Source: a virus. From it: DNA of 39,760 nucleotides. The notes under the pieces were generated by a model. The model worked only from the letters and a program-made list of their open reading frames with translations, did no database searches and was not told the origin of the DNA. Positions 4,576-36,440 of the stretch are shown piece after piece. The stretch is from IMG/VR virus record IMGVR_UViG_3300020119_000389, positions 1 to 39,760 of that record, one strand, 5' to 3'. Position numbers and translations under genes: made by a program. Numbering within the stretch: position 1 is the first letter of the stretch; the number at the start of each line of letters is the position of its first letter.

Positions 4576-5070
4576 ATGGCAGCTCCTAAAGGAAATAAGT
4601 TTGGTGTAGGGCATGGAAGACCACCCAAGCATTTTACGGATGAGCAGGTAACAGCTCTCGGAGAAGAAATGCTTATGTGGATGGAAGAGCAGGACAATGA
4701 TCCCAAGTCCGACGTTGTGCATTTATCTGAGTGGTATTCAGAGGTAAAAGGGATTTTTCCTCCCCAATGGGATGATCTTACAAGAAGAGATAGCTTTTCC
4801 GCTTATCACAAAGCAGCAAAACTTTGGATGGGTAAAAGACTCATGAAAAACAAGAACCTGCAGTCAAGTTATGGCAACAGATTTCTTGGCATTTACTTCT
4901 CTGAGATCAAGGCCCATGAGATCGAAATGATGCAGATCAAAAACAAGACAGAAGATGAGAACAAAGCAGAGCAGATCCGGCATGCTCTCAGCACTATGCA
5001 GCAGTTTAAGGATCAGGTCTCGGCTTTAAACAGCGCTGACATCAAAAGCAGCGAAGAGAGCAAATCATAG
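4576..5070 (+). CDS. terS: Terminase small subunit, 164 aa
   Basis: ATG at 4576 follows AAGG. The N-terminus (MAAPKGNKFGVGHGRPPK) is the basic arm typical of small terminase subunits, followed by a helical domain (ALGEEMLMWMEEQ, then AYHKAAKLWMGKRLM) and a charged C-terminal helix rich in E, K and Q. It lies directly before the large subunit, as expected. It should recognise the packaging site and regulate TerL. Its last 58 bases are overlapped head-on by the leftward gene at 5013-5396. A weak promoter-like TTGCCA-17-TAAAAA precedes the gene. Confidence 0.8.
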   Translation: MAAPKGNKFGVGHGRPPKHFTDEQVTALGEEMLMWMEEQDNDPKSDVVHLSEWYSEVKGIFPPQWDDLTRRDSFSAYHKAAKLWMGKRLMKNKNLQSSYGNRFLGIYFSEIKAHEIEMMQIKNKTEDENKAEQIRHALSTMQQFKDQVSALNSADIKSSEESKS

Positions 5071-5396
5071 TTCGATACAGGCATGGACATAGCGTGCTGT
5101 GGAAGATTTTCTATGCTCTTTATCATCATGTCGAGTTCATCAAGCAGCTGTTTACGGCCTGGTTTGTCTAGAGCCTCTTCTTTTTTTTCACCCTCTATAG
5201 ACCCAGACACTTTAACGGGGATCACGTTGTCTTTGTCATCGACTCTTTGAAAGTTCGCATAGTCTTTTGCATATGATCTGTAAACAGATTCTCCACCCTC
5301 GATAGCGATCTCGCCACATTTGCATTGAACGTAGTCGGTCAGGTGAAAACTCTCAATGATGGAACTGCACAACCTGCACTTTGCTCTATTTCTCAT
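5013..5396 (-). CDS. Conserved zinc-binding protein (DUF7695-like), 127 aa, leftward
   Basis: Transcribed against its neighbours, between terS and terL. C7-x-x-C10 and C25-x-C27 in MRNRAKCRLC ... YVQCKCGEIAIEGG form a zinc knuckle; RSYAKDYANFQRVDDKDN follows, then a helical C-terminus (LLDELDMMIKSIENLPQH). I have seen this arrangement as a widespread small phage/bacterial family, possibly the one called DUF7695; the name is from memory. Function is unknown. The head-on overlap with terS is unusual and marks a late insertion or a moron. Confidence 0.65.
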   Translation of the reverse strand: MRNRAKCRLCSSIIESFHLTDYVQCKCGEIAIEGGESVYRSYAKDYANFQRVDDKDNVIPVKVSGSIEGEKKEEALDKPGRKQLLDELDMMIKSIENLPQHAMSMPVSNYDLLSSLLLMSALFKAET

Positions 5397-5426
5397 AAAA
5401 TCTTCTCTCTGTTATGGTGTAATATT

Positions 5427-6737
5427 ATGTCTCAAATACTCGCTCCAAAGCAAATGGAGTTTATCATCAACTCCAATGGCAAGTGGAACATAGCTCACGG
5501 TTCTGTGCGTTCTGGAAAAACCGTCTGCACGCTCTTTGCTTTTATGGACTCGCTCATAGAGTGCCCCGATTCAAAGATCTGGATGATTGGTAAGACCTCT
5601 GAAACCATTTACGACAATGCCATTCGACTTCTTACCGAGCCACAGGGAGGGAATTACCCTGACTGCCTGGCCATTTTCAGACCTCATCTCACATGGCGTC
5701 CGGCAAAAAGAGAACTCCTTTATCTCGACAAGGTGATAAATACTATTGGGGCAAAAGACGAGGGATCTATTGGGCTTATTCAGGGGAAAACCTTCTCCAG
5801 AGTCTATTGTGATGAGATGACACTTTACCCAGAGTCTGTGATCGACATGATCGACACGCGCCTGTCCTATCCCTATTCCAAAGGCTATGCGTCGATGAAC
5901 CCTTCCTATCCATCACACAAACTCAAGCAGTGGATTGATAGGGGCGAAGCTGGGGATAAAGACTATTACGCGATGCACTTTGAACTGGATGACAACCTGT
6001 TTTTGGATGAATCCTACAAATCCAGAGTGCGCGCTTCATCGAGTGGTCTTTTCTACAAAAGGAACATTTTGGGTCTATGGTGTCTGGCAGAAGGTGCTAT
6101 CTTCGACTTCTTTGACAGGAAAATTCACACATTCCAACGCCCTCCCTGCGCAGCCGAGTACTGGATTGCAGGCATTGACTATGGAACCATCAATCCATTT
6201 GCCTGCGTTATCATGGGGGTATCATCTGGAAAGAATACACAGTCTGGTAAGCGGATCTGGGTGGAGAAAGAGTACTACTGGGATTCCCGAAAGATGGGCA
6301 GGCAAAAGACCAACAGCGAGTACGCAGAGGACATTGCAAACTTCATAGAGCCATATAACATAAAGAGCGTTTATGTTGATCCATCAGCTGCTGCTTTTAA
6401 GGAAGAACTTAGGCGCAGAAAGATACATGTGGTAGATGCGAACAATGAAGTGGAAGATGGGATCCAGATAATGACATCGGAGATGAAGCGGGGAGTATTG
6501 AGCGTATCGTCTGAATGTCCCAACCTAATACGCGAGATTGAAGGGTATGTGTGGGATAACAAGTCAGCTGAACGTGGTTATGATGCACCGGTAAAGCAGG
6601 CAGACCACGCGCTCGATGCTGTTAGATACTGCGTGGCAACACACAAGATAGCGACATTTGACGCCGATGCTTACTACAGAAAACAGGAGATGCAGATGCG
6701 ACAACAGCATGGGTGGGGGAATTCAGCATTTAGATGA
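5427..6737 (+). CDS. terL: Terminase large subunit, 436 aa
   Basis: ATG at 5427 gives the expected N-terminus; the frame is open further upstream but over the antisense gene. ATPase part: Walker A GSVRSGKT at residues 25-32, Walker B VYCDE at 126-130 and MNPSYP at 157-162 as the coupling motif. Nuclease part: D251 in GIDYGT, D318 in VYVDPS and D393/D397 in ADHALDAV make an RNase H-type site. It is of the PBSX/Terminase_3 or Terminase_6 kind, of normal length, and apparently intact. It pumps DNA into the prohead through the portal. No strong ribosome site is visible. Its stop is ATGA-coupled to the next gene. Confidence 0.93.
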   Translation: MSQILAPKQMEFIINSNGKWNIAHGSVRSGKTVCTLFAFMDSLIECPDSKIWMIGKTSETIYDNAIRLLTEPQGGNYPDCLAIFRPHLTWRPAKRELLYLDKVINTIGAKDEGSIGLIQGKTFSRVYCDEMTLYPESVIDMIDTRLSYPYSKGYASMNPSYPSHKLKQWIDRGEAGDKDYYAMHFELDDNLFLDESYKSRVRASSSGLFYKRNILGLWCLAEGAIFDFFDRKIHTFQRPPCAAEYWIAGIDYGTINPFACVIMGVSSGKNTQSGKRIWVEKEYYWDSRKMGRQKTNSEYAEDIANFIEPYNIKSVYVDPSAAAFKEELRRRKIHVVDANNEVEDGIQIMTSEMKRGVLSVSSECPNLIREIEGYVWDNKSAERGYDAPVKQADHALDAVRYCVATHKIATFDADAYYRKQEMQMRQQHGWGNSAFR

Positions 6738-7408
6738 CAGACACAAGAACAGAAATGGAAATCGTAATGTCGAGACTATCGAGCCTAGAGTCACACATAA
6801 TCAACCTGATCATCCCTATCCAGAACATATCCCGGGCGCTGACAGACCCACGTTATGTCAACGATATCCGAAAGACAGCAGATTTTATCATCAACAATCC
6901 CGTCAAACTCGACGATGCAGAATTGAGGCGTGAGTGTAGAGAATTGAAAGCGTTGCTGCGGGAGTTTACAGAGAATAAACAGGCAGTCGATCTCAACCAG
7001 ACTCTGGCAGAGATTAAATATATCGGCAAACGTGTCATGCAGATTGAGCAGTGCTTGGCACGGATCGATGCATCAGGGATTAAAAATGATGTGACGATCT
7101 CTGTGGTCCATAATGGAATAAGGCCAAAGGATTCAGAAGATGAATACTATAACTCTGTGGATATTTCACTTGAGAATATATGTAACTCGCTTCCGATGAG
7201 GGGGTCTGTTTATTTACGTCATTACATAGAAGGCGCGGGAACCGCAACGCAAAGCTCTATTGCAAAAAAGATGGGGATAACATCCGAAAGGGTTGGCCAA
7301 ATAAAGAAGAAAGTAAAGCGAGTATTGAGCAGTCCTTTCTTGCTGCCTGACATTAATAAAATGAAGGATGCTAAGACCAAGGAAATCTTGAGCATGTTGA
7401 TAAAGTAG
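6734..7408 (+). CDS. Sigma-70 region-4-like HTH protein with helical N-terminus, 224 aa
   Basis: ATGA-coupled to terL. Residues 1-115 are long amphipathic helices. Residues 145-200 hold LENICNSLPMRGSVYLRHYI, then QSSIAKKMGITSERVGQIKK: the 'all helices, short loop, S-x-x-R-x-x-Q-I' layout of sigma-70 region 4 or LuxR-type HTH. It lacks regions 2 and 3, so it is not a full sigma factor. It could be a late-gene activator or a region-4 mimic; position between terL and portal is odd for a regulator, and a structural DNA-binding role is also possible. Confidence 0.6.
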   Translation: MTDTRTEMEIVMSRLSSLESHIINLIIPIQNISRALTDPRYVNDIRKTADFIINNPVKLDDAELRRECRELKALLREFTENKQAVDLNQTLAEIKYIGKRVMQIEQCLARIDASGIKNDVTISVVHNGIRPKDSEDEYYNSVDISLENICNSLPMRGSVYLRHYIEGAGTATQSSIAKKMGITSERVGQIKKKVKRVLSSPFLLPDINKMKDAKTKEILSMLIK

Positions 7409-7468: not shown

Positions 7469-9613
7469 ATGTCATTCTATTATCCCCCATGGAATAACGC
7501 GCTTGAGCCCAATCAGGGCAACGTCAGACAGTGGCTGGATAATCTCTACAGCAAATTTCAGCCCATAGAGCAGAGTCGCTGGAACCAGTCAAATATTGAT
7601 TCTCTCTTCTACGCAGGCTCACAGACCTTTGTGAACCGCTATTTCAACATGAATCCATCTGCCGGACAAAACCAGTTCTACTTTAACCTGCTACAGCAGC
7701 CGGTCAATATGGTAACTGGCTACCAGCGTCAGCATAGGAAAGGGTTTAATTACGTACCAACTGAGGGTTCTGATCCCAATACCACTGATCAGTATACCAA
7801 AATCATGACCCATGTGGCCAATAAAGAGGGGATTCATGAGCAGTTCTCCAGAGCGTGCGAGCAGGCATGTATCACAGGTCTTGTTCTCACGCAGCCCTAT
7901 CTCGACTATTCTGGCGATGATCAGGCTCAGGGGTCCTTAAAATTAAAAGTGTGGGAATACAACAGCTTTCTCGTCGATCCATTCGCGCGGAACTATGATT
8001 TTTCTGATGCACAGTTCATCTGGTGTCAGGAGTACATTTCCAAAAAAGAAGCCGAGGATCGTTTTCCCGACAGGATGCAAAACATCGCTCCAATGGCAGG
8101 AACACCCCAGCGCTACGGATCTTTCTATTTCCTTCCAGAGAACTACAATATGGCCAGGAACGATCTTCTGGTCCTTTCCTATGTCTGGTACAAGTGGAAG
8201 AGAAAAAAGAAGCGCCTTTATTCCCGTACGCGTAACCAGTTCTTTGACTTTGCCGGTGGCGATGGGAATCTGGAAGCCATTCTATACAATATTCCGGATA
8301 TGGAAGTTGTCACTGTCGATGTTCCTACATGGAAACTGGCTGTTGTTCTCAATGACCAGCTCATGTTTCAGGGTGACAATCCTCTTGGATTTGATGACTG
8401 TCCTTTTGTCCCGGTATTCTGGAACTACGAGCCCCATCTCAGTTACTACGATCTGAGAGCAAGAGGACTTGTGCGCACCATGCGTGACAGTAATTTCCTC
8501 ATGAATCGCCGCATCATAATTAACCATGACATATCAGAAGCTACCATCAATGCGGGCTGGAAGCGTAAAGTAGGGGCTGTTGCCAATGAAGACAATCTCA
8601 AAAAGTCAGGTCAGGGATGGGATATCATTATCAATGATGGGTATGAACTGTCCGATTGCGAAAAGATTATTCCTTCTTCTGTTCCCGAGTCAGATATGGC
8701 GCTTGCGGATCAACTCCGTTCACTCATATTTGGTACATCGGGGGTAGATTTAGAGAACTGGAGTGCGCAAAATGACAAGCAGGCATCTTCTCTAACTACC
8801 ATGCTAAAGCAGGCAGCCAATCTTCTTGTTCTTCAAAAGTATTTCGACCAGTGGGATTTTTCTCTAAAGACACTTGGAGAAAGAATGCTGCAGATTGTGC
8901 TTAACAACTGGAATGCAGAGAAGGTTGGGCTGTTAATTGGAGAGGAGCCATCACCTCATTTTTATTCGAAGGTGTTTGCCAAATATCAGGTTCTGGTTGA
9001 AGAAGGAGTTCTTACTCCGACCCAACAGAACATGCAGGCCCAGTCGCTTATGGATATCAACGCGGCCTTTGGAAGAGAGGTGTTTCCGCCATCCATGGTT
9101 GTTAAAAATCTCAACATTCAGGGCAAAGCAGATGCGATCCAATTCCTTAAAGACCAGGAACAGCAGGCAGCAGCGGTACAGTCAGAGGCTACAAATATTC
9201 AGCACGCTTTTGAAGAGGCTCGACTCAAAGAACTCATGTCCAAAGCAGCCGCCAACCTTGCCACAGCTAGAGAAAGACATGGAAGATCTCAGGCTGATAT
9301 TGGACTCTATGAAGAGAGACTTAGTGAAATTACAAGGAACAGAGCGCTTGCGACCAAAGACAAGATGGAAGCGCTTGAAAAAATGGTGGATGTCACTGCT
9401 AAGCTCGGAGCCATAGAGACAATGGTCAAGCTGGGACAGATCGAACAGTTCAATGACCAGCAGTCAATTGGTGAGGATATTGAGAAGCGTGATGCACAAA
9501 AGACAAGCGACTCCAACCAGTTTTTGATGGAAATGCTGAAGGGAATTCCTGGAATGCAGCAACCGCAGCAGCAGCCCCAGCCTGGTATGGATATGCAGCA
9601 GGGGATGATGTAA
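7469..9613 (+). CDS. Portal protein, 714 aa
   Basis: ATG at 7469 with GGAG eight bases upstream. The length, position after terL, and motifs of the podovirus portal type (FYFNLLQQPVNMVTGYQRQH near residue 70; LVDPFARNYDF near 170; LRARGLVRTMRDSNFLMNRR near 330) identify it. The C-terminal third is a long helical barrel-like segment with A/E/K/Q repeats, ending in a Q/P/M-rich tail. It forms the dodecameric ring through which DNA is packaged and ejected. The protein looks complete. Confidence 0.9.
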   Translation: MSFYYPPWNNALEPNQGNVRQWLDNLYSKFQPIEQSRWNQSNIDSLFYAGSQTFVNRYFNMNPSAGQNQFYFNLLQQPVNMVTGYQRQHRKGFNYVPTEGSDPNTTDQYTKIMTHVANKEGIHEQFSRACEQACITGLVLTQPYLDYSGDDQAQGSLKLKVWEYNSFLVDPFARNYDFSDAQFIWCQEYISKKEAEDRFPDRMQNIAPMAGTPQRYGSFYFLPENYNMARNDLLVLSYVWYKWKRKKKRLYSRTRNQFFDFAGGDGNLEAILYNIPDMEVVTVDVPTWKLAVVLNDQLMFQGDNPLGFDDCPFVPVFWNYEPHLSYYDLRARGLVRTMRDSNFLMNRRIIINHDISEATINAGWKRKVGAVANEDNLKKSGQGWDIIINDGYELSDCEKIIPSSVPESDMALADQLRSLIFGTSGVDLENWSAQNDKQASSLTTMLKQAANLLVLQKYFDQWDFSLKTLGERMLQIVLNNWNAEKVGLLIGEEPSPHFYSKVFAKYQVLVEEGVLTPTQQNMQAQSLMDINAAFGREVFPPSMVVKNLNIQGKADAIQFLKDQEQQAAAVQSEATNIQHAFEEARLKELMSKAAANLATARERHGRSQADIGLYEERLSEITRNRALATKDKMEALEKMVDVTAKLGAIETMVKLGQIEQFNDQQSIGEDIEKRDAQKTSDSNQFLMEMLKGIPGMQQPQQQPQPGMDMQQGMM

Positions 9614-9677: not shown

Positions 9678-9899
9678 ATGAGCGGCAGAAAAATTAACGA
9701 TCATTCGTTCTGGGCAGGCGGCCCTGGCAAAGATTCAGTACTGCCAGATGGTCCCCACAAAGTAAAAGCTGAGACATCCGCAGAGGGTGCTGGTTCTATC
9801 TCCAAATATGAAGATACAACTGAAGCAATCCGCGCTCAGCAGGTAATGGGTGACAAGAAAGTGAAGAGCCATCCGATGAAGGCCGGTTACCGTTATTAA
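9678..9899 (+). CDS. Small conserved virion-region protein, 73 aa
   Basis: ATG at 9678 with a strong AGGAGG site. Starts MSGRKINDHSFWAGGPGK and ends KVKSHPMKAGYRY, with KYEDTTEAIRAQQ in the middle; I associate this short protein with the gene after the portal in N4-gp56-capsid phages. It is highly charged, glycine/lysine-rich, and may be a minor head protein. Own promoter upstream and a terminator directly after it suggest strong, separate expression. Confidence 0.65.
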   Translation: MSGRKINDHSFWAGGPGKDSVLPDGPHKVKAETSAEGAGSISKYEDTTEAIRAQQVMGDKKVKSHPMKAGYRY

Positions 9900-9903
9900 T
9901 TTT

Positions 9904-9961
9904 CAGGGGATCCGGTCGCGTTGTGAGCATGACTAATTCCCAAATGGGTCCCCTGTTTTTT
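9904..9961 (+). terminator. Rho-independent terminator with a long loop
   Basis: CAGGGGATCC (9904-9913) pairs with GGGTCCCCTG (9946-9955), ten pairs with one G-U, followed by six T (9956-9961). The loop is 32 bases. It closes the single-gene unit of the 73-residue protein. Confidence 0.7.
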
Positions 9962-9970
9962 GGAGTTGTT

Positions 9971-11828: not shown

Positions 11829-11833
11829 AAGGA

Positions 11834-11905
11834 CTCCAGGTGCAGGATTTGAACCTGCGGCCAACGCATTAACAGTGCGCTGCTCTACCGCTGAGCTAAC
11901 CTGGA
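11834..11905 (-). tRNA. tRNA-Asn (GTT)
   Basis: On the minus strand a full cloverleaf folds: acceptor TCCAGGT/ACCTGGA, D arm GCTC-AGCGGTA-GAGC, anticodon arm GCGCA-CTGTTAA-TGCGT with anticodon GTT, variable loop TGGCC, T arm GCAGG-TTCAAAT-CCTGC, discriminator G. The 3' CCA is not encoded. Seventy-two bases. It reads AAC/AAT codons, which fits the Asn-rich tail proteins. It lies between scaffold and capsid genes, head-to-tail with the nuclease-fold gene upstream, whose stop codon is inside it. Confidence 0.95.
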
Positions 11906-12273
11906 ATAATAGATCTTTTGTATGGGGCATATGAGTTTAAAGAAATCTGTCTTGCCGAATGAATGTCGGAAGACGGGATCTCATAAACATCCATCTGTTC
12001 GGTAACAACAAAAATAAAGTCGCAGGAAGCCGGATCAAACTTCTTTATCGAAGTGTTTGGCTGGTTTCCTCCGCTGCTTCTTATGTTTGCCGAGTATACT
12101 CCATACTTTGTCTTGTATGAGCATGAGACAACTTTGATCCTGAACAGCCCCTTTTGATCGTCAAAAATCAGATTATATTCACAGGGAGAAAGGGGAATGC
12201 TTACCATACCGCGCAGAGCGTAGTAGGAGATTGCAATTCCAACAGCTCCCTTTCCTCTGATTTCTTTCGTCAT
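11896..12273 (-). CDS. PD-(D/E)XK-like (PDDEXK_5 type) protein, possibly inactive, 125 aa
   Basis: Leftward. The layout GKGAVGIAISYYALRGMVSI-PLSPCEYNLIFDDQ-RIKVVSC-FDFIF follows the small PD-(D/E)XK family found with group I introns and as phage free-standing nucleases: helix, 'PLS/PFG' turn, Y-D-L-x-x-D, then I-Q-V-K-T. Here the usual first Asp is Asn (EYNLIF) and the catalytic Lys position is Val (IKVVS), so catalysis is doubtful. The TAG stop is formed by bases 8-10 of tRNA-Asn. It could be a decayed homing enzyme that carried the tRNA in. Confidence 0.5.
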   Translation of the reverse strand: MTKEIRGKGAVGIAISYYALRGMVSIPLSPCEYNLIFDDQKGLFRIKVVSCSYKTKYGVYSANIRSSGGNQPNTSIKKFDPASCDFIFVVTEQMDVYEIPSSDIHSARQISLNSYAPYKRSIIPG

Positions 12274-32929: not shown

Positions 32930-33727
32930 TTATTTGGGTGATTTAAGGTAAGTATGCTTTTTTATCGTCGAATAATAGGCTGGCCAGTCTATGTACATCC
33001 CCTGTTTTTTAGCCATCTTGAGAGCCGATCCAACCACATATTCGCTATGATTCCTTATATGCCAACCGTTCCTATGCTTATATTTTGCAGACTCGAGAGC
33101 ACTTTGAAACGTCCCCTCCGAGACGAGGGATAGCTTTAGTTTAATCTCTAGTGGAAGATCGAGACGGTCAATGTACTTAGGAATGGTAAGGATTCTTTCC
33201 GGAGCTTCCTTTTCCCTTTTATATGTCGGAGAACAGATACCCGTAATCCCTTTACCAGTAAGATTTACATATGTACCTGGGATAAGAAGAGGATTGGGTC
33301 GCAAATACCGACATGGGGGGTCGCAAATACCGACATTGCCATAGACAAATTCAAGTTCTTTTTTTAATAGCATTTTATACCAGTTTTTTTGCTGTTTGGT
33401 GTTCTTTTCCAGTATCCCGTGGGCATCCATAAACTGCATCGCATGAAGGAATGTCTCTGCCAGTTCATACCTGTTGGTTCTGTAAGCACGTCTGTGTCGC
33501 TTAACCAAATAAGGATATTTTGAAAAAAACCTGCATACTGTGTCGTATGAACAGTCAGAATTTTCAGCGATGTATTTTATTCCCATCTGTAAACCCAAAG
33601 GCATCGTACCTTTTTGCCAGGCCCTAAACCAAAAATAAAACTGAACAGCTATATTTTTATGACTGGGAGAAAGATTTATTAGAGTTTCAATCAGATTAAA
33701 AGCGAGAGGGGAGCAGTCTTTTTTCAT
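32930..33727 (-). CDS. Replication-initiator-like protein (lambda O-type layout), 265 aa
   Basis: ATG at 33727. N-terminal domain: AVQFYFWFRAWQKGTMPLGL, then QMGIKYIAENSDCSYDTVCR (HTH, about 48-68) and VKRHRRAYRTNRYELAETFL (wing). A linker at 128-148 is encoded by two iteron-like repeats; the C-terminal domain (150-265) is mixed. HTH plus second domain with repeats in the linker is the lambda O arrangement, where the N-terminus binds iterons in its own gene and the C-terminus loads helicase. The phage has no helicase, so the partner would be a host protein. Function is inference; the repeats are seen directly. Confidence 0.55.
   Translation of the reverse strand: MKKDCSPLAFNLIETLINLSPSHKNIAVQFYFWFRAWQKGTMPLGLQMGIKYIAENSDCSYDTVCRFFSKYPYLVKRHRRAYRTNRYELAETFLHAMQFMDAHGILEKNTKQQKNWYKMLLKKELEFVYGNVGICDPPCRYLRPNPLLIPGTYVNLTGKGITGICSPTYKREKEAPERILTIPKYIDRLDLPLEIKLKLSLVSEGTFQSALESAKYKHRNGWHIRNHSEYVVGSALKMAKKQGMYIDWPAYYSTIKKHTYLKSPK
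33296..33336. repeat. Two iteron-like 19-bp direct repeats with AT-rich flank (putative origin)
   Basis: GGGTCGCAAATACCGACAT occurs at 33296-33314 and 33318-33336, identical, 22 bp apart (two helix turns). They lie inside the gene above and are read in different frames (CRYLRP versus VGICDP), so the identity is kept at the DNA level. Next to them, 33341-33390 has only 10 G/C in 50 bases, a possible unwinding region. Confidence 0.6.
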
Positions 33728-33750
33728 CAGGATCTCATGGTTGAGTCCCG

Positions 33751-33869
33751 TTGCGACTATAAAGCTTGTATTTTACTTAAGCTTTATTCAGCATTATGGA
33801 TAAGATATTGCGCGTTCGGCTCTACAAATTCGAACGTCGCGATCTTTCTCCGCCTCTTGTTAGTCGCAA
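33751..33869. promoter_or_regulatory. Operator-like inverted repeats upstream of the replication gene
   Basis: The 223-base gap 33728-33950 holds TTGCGACTA at 33751-33759 and its exact reverse complement at 33861-33869, plus AAAGCTT/AAGCTTT at 33761-33785 with an 11-base gap. TTGCGAC is also part of the iterons. These are candidate binding sites for autoregulation. No convincing -35/-10 pair was found. Confidence 0.4.
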
Positions 33870-33876
33870 GGGGCAT
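33784..33876 (-). CDS. Tentative basic peptide, 30 aa
   Basis: ATG at 33876 opens MPLATNKRRRKIATFEF followed by VEPNAQYLIHNAE and a stop. The start of the peptide looks coding, but there is no ribosome site (an A-run precedes it) and it lies within the operator region, so it may be a remnant. Confidence 0.25.
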   Translation of the reverse strand: MPLATNKRRRKIATFEFVEPNAQYLIHNAE

Positions 33877-33950
33877 TTTTTTTTGTGAAACCCGATCATC
33901 CTAATCTTCAGCCTGGATATCGGCAACGAATTTTTCTTAAACCCCTATGT

Positions 33951-34413: not shown

Positions 34414-34655
34414 ACCTGATCCTTTGAGCCATCTTTATCATAGTATGCGCTTTTATCAATAAATTCTTTTATGAAAACATCAATCAATTCCACTGCAATT
34501 TCTCTGAATTTTTGACGGGATTTACAATTTCTCATTAGAGTAAAAAGGAAAATGTAACTTGTGGCATTAATTACACTTTTATCCGAAGTGTCGTTTTTTA
34601 AAATACACTCATCTATTTTTTTAAGTAATTTTATGTTTTCTTCATCATTAATCAT
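34410..34655 (-). CDS. Small helical protein of a three-gene family, 81 aa (member 1)
   Basis: I chose the ATG at 34655 because it overlaps the exonuclease stop as ATGA; an upstream ATG at 34673 is within the exonuclease gene. Core ATSYIFLFTLMRNCKSRQKF then REIAVELIDVFI. Three copies in a row directly after a recombination exonuclease suggest an accessory role in the recombination operon or a defence-related expansion; unknown. Confidence 0.55.
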   Translation of the reverse strand: MINDEENIKLLKKIDECILKNDTSDKSVINATSYIFLFTLMRNCKSRQKFREIAVELIDVFIKEFIDKSAYYDKDGSKDQV

Positions 34656-35503
34656 ATCTGATCCATCCTCCATCGTATCATTGCAGGTTTCCTATAAGCT
34701 TCCAGATTCACATTCTGAAGTTCAGGCACGGAACTGTAGTCAATATGCCCTTTTGTGTGCACTGGAATCATCTTTATCCGATACCCTACACTTGGCTTCT
34801 CTCCACATAGATCAATGAGCTTTCTTTTCAGATTCTCTTTTCTCTCTTCAATGGCTTTGCTCTGGGTAATCAGGTGACTGAGTTCCTCTTCAAGCATCAG
34901 CCATGTCCTGTCTTCTCTTTTTACCAGATCTTTGGCGGTGGGTTCTGGAGGGATTCCAAGCTGCATGTTGTCCCAAAACTCTTTCTCCATCTTCATCATA
35001 CCCGGTACAAAATCAAAATCCCTGGCTACCTTAATAAGAGCACAGGGCTGAATATCTCCCGGGCGATAGCTGAAATAATAAATATCATTAACTCCGGCTA
35101 CTACTATTTGATGCTGAAGCTGCGGATAGTATTTATCAGGAACCTTACCACTCACTGCAATATCATGGTCTGCTTTTCCAGGACATTTTATTTCGCAGCA
35201 AATCCCAGCGTCATTAATTCCGTCCATGCTCGCACCCATCCATGGGAATGCGTAATTTGTGATCCATTCAGGATTAACAAAATGACCTGTGATCTGCTCA
35301 AAAGCGCGCCTCGCCTCTGGTTCCAGATCATTTCCACGTTTCATGGCATCATTTTGAACAGTCTCACGAGCCTCCATCTTGTCAAAATAAAGCTGTCTTG
35401 CAGTTTTCCAGGGAGACAGCCCCATAATTGGAGCTGCATCCGTGGCTGTGATGAGTTTTCTTCTGGCTTCCAGCCATTCTTTGGAACCGATCTCTAGTTT
35501 CAT
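34652..35503 (-). CDS. YqaJ/lambda-type exonuclease, 283 aa
   Basis: Leftward, ATGA-coupled on both sides. LEARRKLITATDAAPIMGLS is the YqaJ N-terminal signature; RGNDLEPEAR gives the conserved E63 helix; the catalytic set is D94 in ASMDG, E104-x-K106 in CEIKC and Q128/Q132 in YYPQLQHQ. All PD-(D/E)XK residues are present. It should resect double-strand ends 5' to 3' for the Bet protein encoded 190 bases upstream. A helical C-terminal extension (about 200-240) is typical. Confidence 0.88.
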   Translation of the reverse strand: MKLEIGSKEWLEARRKLITATDAAPIMGLSPWKTARQLYFDKMEARETVQNDAMKRGNDLEPEARRAFEQITGHFVNPEWITNYAFPWMGASMDGINDAGICCEIKCPGKADHDIAVSGKVPDKYYPQLQHQIVVAGVNDIYYFSYRPGDIQPCALIKVARDFDFVPGMMKMEKEFWDNMQLGIPPEPTAKDLVKREDRTWLMLEEELSHLITQSKAIEERKENLKRKLIDLCGEKPSVGYRIKMIPVHTKGHIDYSSVPELQNVNLEAYRKPAMIRWRMDQI

Positions 35504-35694
35504 CTTACTGTGACTCCATAGGGAACATTATGCGATACATCCATATCAATTCGGTTTGCAGTGGAATGTCTTATTCTGTAATCCGTTGGCAGATCATGCA
35601 CAATTTTGACTTCGATGACCCCACGTGGAACAAACAGGTAAAATGCAATGCCCACAATAAATGTGTGGGCACAAAACATGGCTAAATTTTTCAT
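35500..35694 (-). CDS. Small membrane protein between bet and exonuclease, 64 aa
   Basis: ATGA overlaps on both sides (35691-35694 and 35500-35503). An N-terminal membrane segment (NLAMFCAHTFIVGIAFYLFV) is followed by a soluble beta-rich part (EVKIVHDLPTDYRIRHS). It is unusual to find a membrane protein between the two recombination genes. Function unknown. Confidence 0.55.
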   Translation of the reverse strand: MKNLAMFCAHTFIVGIAFYLFVPRGVIEVKIVHDLPTDYRIRHSTANRIDMDVSHNVPYGVTVR

Positions 35695-36440
35695 GTTTTA
35701 TCCTTAACTTTTCTTCTTTTCTCAAATACATTTACCACATATCCAAAGTCTTTCTGCTCCAAATCATACACGTCAGATAGTCCAAACTTTTCACACAGGC
35801 CTTTTTTGGAATCGGGAAACTCTTCAAGGTACACATCTAGCTGTGCAGACTGTTCTTCGGTGATTTTTTGTTCTATTACTGGAGGATTAACAGTGACATT
35901 TTCCATGACATCGGCCTGTTCCATTTCATCTTTGGTGTAAATGCCGGACATTTCAGCAGGGAAAGCTCTTCGTAGTGCAATGGACTCTGCACATTTTGCA
36001 AGCATTACATGCGGCATATTTGACCAGAATTGTGTTACTTTGCCGTCTTTATCTTTCTGCACATACTCTTCAAAATAGGCTGTAGCAGCCACTTCATGCC
36101 ATGTACCATCCGATGTGCGCTTTTTCACATAACTGGTAGCAGAAATGATTTTTTTGTTGTCGTCATAGACATACAGTGGCTCTCTTCCGGGGGAATAGTT
36201 TCCTGTTCTCTCAGCAATCAGCCTAAATCCATCGATGGAGGTTTGGATGGTCATGGTGTATCTTTTATCTTTATTGCTCCATCTTGGCACTGGATAGATC
36301 TGTCTCATAAAAGGATCCAGACCGGTGCGACGGCAAACTGCACTAAACAGTTCAAATTCGTCGTCGGTTGAGCCTTTACAGATTGTTCTCTTTATTAAAT
36401 CAGTTTTTGTATCTATGTGTTGTGATGACTGTAGGCTCAT
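35691..36440 (-). CDS. bet: Bet/RecT-type single-strand annealing protein, 249 aa
   Basis: ATG at 36440 with GAGGAG upstream and ATGA overlap. ELFSAVCRRTGLDPFMRQIY, PVPRWSNKDKRYTMTIQTS-IDGFRLIAERTGNY and MLAKCAESIALRRAFPAEMS are the defining stretches of phage Bet proteins (RecT clan). It anneals complementary single strands produced by the exonuclease. The C-terminal 60 residues are a typical variable tail. Order here is bet, membrane protein, exonuclease. Confidence 0.92.
   Translation of the reverse strand: MSLQSSQHIDTKTDLIKRTICKGSTDDEFELFSAVCRRTGLDPFMRQIYPVPRWSNKDKRYTMTIQTSIDGFRLIAERTGNYSPGREPLYVYDDNKKIISATSYVKKRTSDGTWHEVAATAYFEEYVQKDKDGKVTQFWSNMPHVMLAKCAESIALRRAFPAEMSGIYTKDEMEQADVMENVTVNPPVIEQKITEEQSAQLDVYLEEFPDSKKGLCEKFGLSDVYDLEQKDFGYVVNVFEKRRKVKDKT

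Follow-up and report, generated by a model that had tools for sequence, protein, structure and literature searches.

Two identical 19-bp direct repeats lie within the gene for a probable initiator of 265 residues in a virus represented by a 39,760-base IMG/VR record (the whole record was analysed and is called the window below). These repeats are probably the binding sites of the protein encoded around them, with the middle of the gene acting as the phage's replication origin. Origins of this type are already known: the relevant cases in the open literature are lambda, the Stx phages, SPP1 and mycobacteriophage RepA, and an earlier description may exist elsewhere. The gene described here (P0001, 32930-33727 on the minus strand) is a new divergent case, and it supplies a concrete candidate origin and initiator for a virus with a replication gene that none of the libraries recognises.

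The repeat pair and its setting

The 19-mer ATGTCGGTATTTGCGACCC occurs exactly twice in the record, at 33318-33336 (the first copy in gene sense) and at 33296-33314, both on the minus strand, giving a start-to-start period of 22; with up to three mismatches allowed, no third copy was found in the 39,760-base window. Two matches to the 19-mer arose in none of 100 dinucleotide shuffles, and a local direct repeat of even 15 bp arose in 2 of 200 Markov shuffles. The pair is also the sole exact direct repeat of at least 12 bp in the record whose copies lie no more than 200 bp apart. Both copies fall at codons 131-144 of the gene, where they are read in two different frames and encode the peptides NVGICD and CRYLRP. 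The first-pass annotation had described identical 19-mers with a 22-bp period inside an initiator gene, and had proposed that they are conserved as DNA; both points were confirmed. In a test that shuffles synonymous codons while keeping the protein and its codon usage, the gene's self-match at offset 22 (17/17) was never equalled (0/500 shuffles, null maximum 16). Because synonymous shuffles never reach this self-match, the repeat is taken to be held at the DNA level. The same test gave p 0.004 for lambda O, and it was significant at 0.01 for none of the 28 other genes in the window. Dyad symmetry within the iteron is weak: it consists of GTCG/CGAC arms only, with 5 of 9 positions symmetric.

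On the 5' side of the iterons in gene sense lies an AT-rich stretch (33341-33390) that could serve as an unwinding element. The G+C content of the 50-mer starting at 33341 is exactly 20%, and this 50-mer belongs to the least stable 0.6% of 50-bp windows. The segment that the earlier annotation had placed beside the repeats is thus present and adjacent, but it is not unique: it is one of 13 clusters in the record at or below 20% G+C, and since the 12 others are equally AT-rich, the stretch is not special by itself. GC skew had been suggested as a check on the origin; it appears to follow gene orientation and is therefore not taken as a sign of replication direction. There are 20 one-mismatch DnaA boxes where 11 would be expected; they are scattered along the record with no cluster at the repeats.

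The probable initiator protein and its relatives beside recT

Searched alone, P0001 gave nothing above cut-off in Pfam (helix-turn-helix models included), PHROGs, NCBIfam or PDB sequences, and no close relative was found among phages, plasmids, viral contigs or genome contigs. For this reason the neighbouring gene for a RecT annealing protein (35691-36440, minus strand; PF03837, E 1.5e-30) was used as bait; the other recombination gene nearby encodes a RecE/YqaJ-type exonuclease (34652-35503, minus strand; PF09588, E 1e-26). Eighty related viral neighbourhoods were fetched in this way, and an iterated profile identified 32 initiator genes (30 distinct) within them. Several of the 30 exceed the cut-off of the Phage_rep_O model of lambda O (PF04492), a model that P0001 fails and that has no match elsewhere in the record. 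The window has two other features: a single tRNA-Asn gene (anticodon gtt; 11831-11906, minus strand), which sits amid the structural genes but in the opposite orientation to them, and, between the genes for terminase and portal, an ORF (6734-7408, plus strand) with a weak match to an RNA polymerase sigma factor family (phrog_351, E 4.5e-5).

P0001 is linked to this set mainly via two members, L218 and L186. Its C-terminal domain (codons 176-257; 32957-33202, minus strand) shares 35% identity with L218 over 81 aa (phmmer E 4.6e-12), and it is the probable helicase-recruiting part of the protein. Its N-terminal region (codons about 24-92; 33452-33658, minus strand), a putative helix-turn-helix region with a probable wing, aligns with L186 (z 6.2, 0/300 shuffles), itself a weak match to PF13730 (HTH_36). 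A single-sequence structural model of the N-terminal domain is helical (pLDDT 71) and has no significant match in the PDB, and the corresponding fold of full-length P0001 was unusable (pLDDT 45). Helix-turn-helix domains (PF13730 among them, all scoring below curated cut-offs) are present in both L218 and L186, whose PHROG matches are to DnaD-like loaders, O-like initiators or helix-turn-helix DNA-binding proteins. When P0001 is left out of the profile, its score against it is no better than E 0.004, so it is regarded as an edge member. It had been suggested that P0001, not being an obvious O homologue, might found a new initiator family. It is more readily placed, as a highly divergent member, in a broad class of O-like/HTH_36-like initiators than in an isolated new family.

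Repeats like those of P0001 recur in the linkers of its relatives. A gene was counted as positive when, at 30-60% of its length, it held repeats with a period of 21-23 and an identity of 14/17 or more (period and position limits that were chosen after a first look at the repeats of these same genes). By this count 13 of the 30 initiator genes were positive, compared with 3 of 475 similarly sized other ORFs (Fisher 3e-15). A broader repeat test, free of limits on period and position, was positive at p <=0.01 for 7 of 30 initiators versus 11 of 475 ORFs. One of the three repeat-positive control ORFs, L214, itself matches a replication protein in PHROGs. No clear repeat pair was found in L218 (the closest C-terminal relative of P0001) or in about half of the 30 genes. 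Where repeats occur, their sequences are unrelated from phage to phage (for example GACACtagaccaGTGTC in L203, GGTGCaacgaacGCACC in L188, GGTGCggaaaaatGCACC in L202 and GTGCGaaacCGCAC in L253); many are inverted repeats, like the lambda iterons, and the side on which the AT-rich DNA lies varies. Winged helix-turn-helix initiators linked to recT (such as these four, L186 and L218) share the domain layout and the recT neighbour of P0001, whereas their repeats are unrelated to its own, a pair known from one record only.

One check proposed for the repeats was that both persist in relatives while the residues vary: position, spacing and identity within a gene are kept, but the repeat sequence is not conserved. 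A kept position and spacing with a changed sequence is what would be expected of co-evolving initiator-site pairs, and unrelated repeats recurring at one place offer a natural record of such co-evolution. Looking in linkers for codon-independent local repeats with a period of 21-23 is also a simple test for finding initiators and origins in unclassified phages. L214 (ORF at 4611-5705, minus strand), a protein outside the profile, has an exact mid-gene ATACCCCAATGGGGAAA pair with a period of 23 and was found by the repeat test alone.

A second group of genes, reached through the core ATGTCGGTA that they share with the P0001 iteron, appears from sequence comparison to be a clear case of initiator-site co-evolution. 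These HTH_36-like initiators (L151-L174, 17 distinct genes; for example L151, 3001-3777) mostly have three linker iterons, with periods of 22 and 23 and in different frames; the iterons are near-identical inside a gene, differ between genes and are followed directly downstream (3') by a very AT-rich flank. Neither hhalign nor a PSSM found a sequence relation between P0001 and this group, the PSSM having low power in that it also misses lambda O. The idea that many initiators carry the ATGTCGGTA core found no confirmation beyond L053/L151. An exact scan of viral contigs for TGTCGGTATTTGCGAC returned 7 single matches, all attributable to chance, and a double GGTATTTGCGAC pattern had no match in viral contigs. 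Scanning genomes for a triple ATGTCGGTA pattern returned coding repeats and mobile-element-like ends, and no in-gene iteron class. Near-identical ATGTCGGTA arrays stand at the ends of contigs L106, L126, L128, L131, L138, L140, L146, L147 and L149, all from one metagenomic genome labelled Klebsiella pneumoniae; their appearance suggests a mobile element present in multiple copies, at whose ends the assembly broke. A separate group of viral contigs (L086 at about 675, L087 at about 176, L093, L097, L098 and L100) carries arrays of GTCGGTATTT(A/T)ATC with a period of about 22, which are iteron-like but lie outside long ORFs.

A divergent structured element upstream of the initiator

The part of this system most likely to be new is a structured element on the opposite strand, directly upstream of the initiator start (33729-33883, plus strand). 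The region 33728-33900 has a fold z of -4.6 versus shuffles, and the element ends in a hairpin followed by a T run. Rfam gave no credible match to it, and no promoter match was found at the element. The element recurs in relatives. It lies likewise upstream of the L180 initiator (9788-9968, minus strand), where 27 of the 29 core bases match, and a covariance model built from these two sequences finds the region upstream of the L218 initiator (E 0.0009 in 0.9 Mb). In L218, which was outside the model, the element has the same place and orientation (5098-5261, plus strand); L179 has a weaker instance (8738-8930, minus strand). In the window, L180 and L218, whose sequences differ, pairing is possible between a 5' segment and the terminator's 3' half, with a predicted energy of -20 to -26 kcal/mol versus -10 to -13 for the terminator hairpin. 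Across 31 initiators, that of the window among them, the mean fold z of the upstream 200 nt is -3.4, versus -0.4 for the regions upstream of other ORFs at the same loci (p 3e-11).

The position of the element recalls the lambda oop RNA, a transcript that lies next to the origin and runs in the direction leading away from gene O (PMC3985674, PMC3349717). Like OOP, the candidate element is short, has a terminator hairpin and is divergent from the initiator gene just upstream of it; unlike OOP, which is 77 nt, it is about 150 nt long and could form a long-range stem that excludes the terminator. It is possibly a new RNA family that is OOP-like in position. A wider proposal can be made tentatively, and with more doubt than belief: the RecE/RecT phages of this group may share a two-part replication control module in which fast-changing linker iterons with a fixed period of 21-23 bp, each set matched to its own initiator, are combined with a divergent structured RNA of ~150 nt at the start of the initiator gene, whose 5' segment competes with the terminator. 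The RNA would then represent a new family and control origin firing through a switch of transcriptional or antisense type, in the layout of lambda oop and O with unrelated sequence.

The candidate origin, its alternatives and known systems

In the proposed mechanism, the putative winged-helix domain at the N-terminus of P0001 would bind both iterons and, because these are 22 bp apart (about two helical turns), the bound protein would lie on one face of the DNA. Assembly on the iterons would strain and then open the adjacent AT-rich stretch, and the C-terminal domain would bring in the host's replicative helicase, either directly or via a loader. A host helicase is proposed because the record encodes no recognisable helicase: neither DnaB nor a DnaC/IstB-type loader was found in it, in line with the first-pass description of a phage without its own helicase. 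The location of the iterons can be understood from the inter-domain linker, which tolerates almost any peptide; the DNA encoding it would be free to evolve as a binding site, following changes in the recognition helix. The reading of the repeats as in-gene sites of their own initiator and as a likely origin, already put forward in that annotation, gains support from the protein relatives and from the linker-repeat enrichment.

DNA binding alone would explain the repeats, and winged helix-turn-helix proteins are often autoregulators. The repeats could therefore be an operator through which the protein limits its own transcription, with replication starting elsewhere, for example at the upstream element (33729-33883), which is conserved in relatives, or by RecE/RecT recombination. 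We consider this improbable: an operator about 390 bp into a gene would be unusual, the proven cases with the same layout (lambda O and SPP1 gene 38) are origins, and members of the family match replication models rather than repressor models. An operator role would in any case be compatible with use as an origin. There is a slimmer chance that the pair is a neutral or recent 22-bp tandem duplication with no function in binding. It has just two copies, and linkers tolerate insertions, yet a 22-bp insertion shifts the frame and would require a compensating change, the 3-bp spacers 3' of the two copies differ (CCC and AAT), and related genes repeatedly carry repeats of period 21-23 at this place with unrelated sequences.

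The same recurrence bears on whether the sites serve some other factor, such as a host protein or another phage regulator, and lie in the gene by chance. Any DNA-binding protein could in principle use them, but the repeat sequence changes with each initiator while its position in the initiator gene is kept, as would suit a site recognised by the product of the gene that contains it, and another factor is considered very unlikely. Least credible of all is a remnant of a transposon end. This idea arises from the core ATGTCGGTA, since the triple scan gave near-identical end arrays in numerous contigs belonging to a single metagenomic genome (L106, L126, L128 and others); the remainder of the repeat, TTTGCGACCC, is absent from those arrays, and the iterons stand inside an intact ORF with relatives to both its ends.

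As an origin inside its initiator gene, the candidate is most readily compared with those of lambda and SPP1. In lambda, direct repeats likewise lie within gene O, with the DNA-binding domain on their N-terminal side and the partner-binding domain on their C-terminal side; an AT-rich tract adjoins them as it does here, and the iteron period of 20-24 bp (in the annotation of the lambda record) compares with 22. The claim of the same architecture as lambda ori nevertheless goes too far: there are two iterons rather than four, the hyphenated inverted symmetry of the lambda iteron is replaced by a weak dyad, and the AT-rich stretch is 5' of the iterons instead of 3' as in lambda and L151-L174. Nor was a lambda P-like loader recognised here. 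With regard to copy number, two iterons and the AT tract form the minimal unwinding unit of lambda, and the two iterons proximal to the tract are sufficient for in vitro replication (cited in PMC7466680). Since lambda's minimal unit has two, two copies would be enough in principle. The Bacillus phage SPP1 has its own loader (gp39) and DnaB-type helicase (gp40), neither of which is recognised here. Its oriL, within gene 38, has repeats to which the initiator binds, situated in the initiator's own gene and accompanied by an AT-rich unwinding element (PMC6316719), the same pairing of in-gene repeats and AT-rich DNA as in the candidate origin of P0001.
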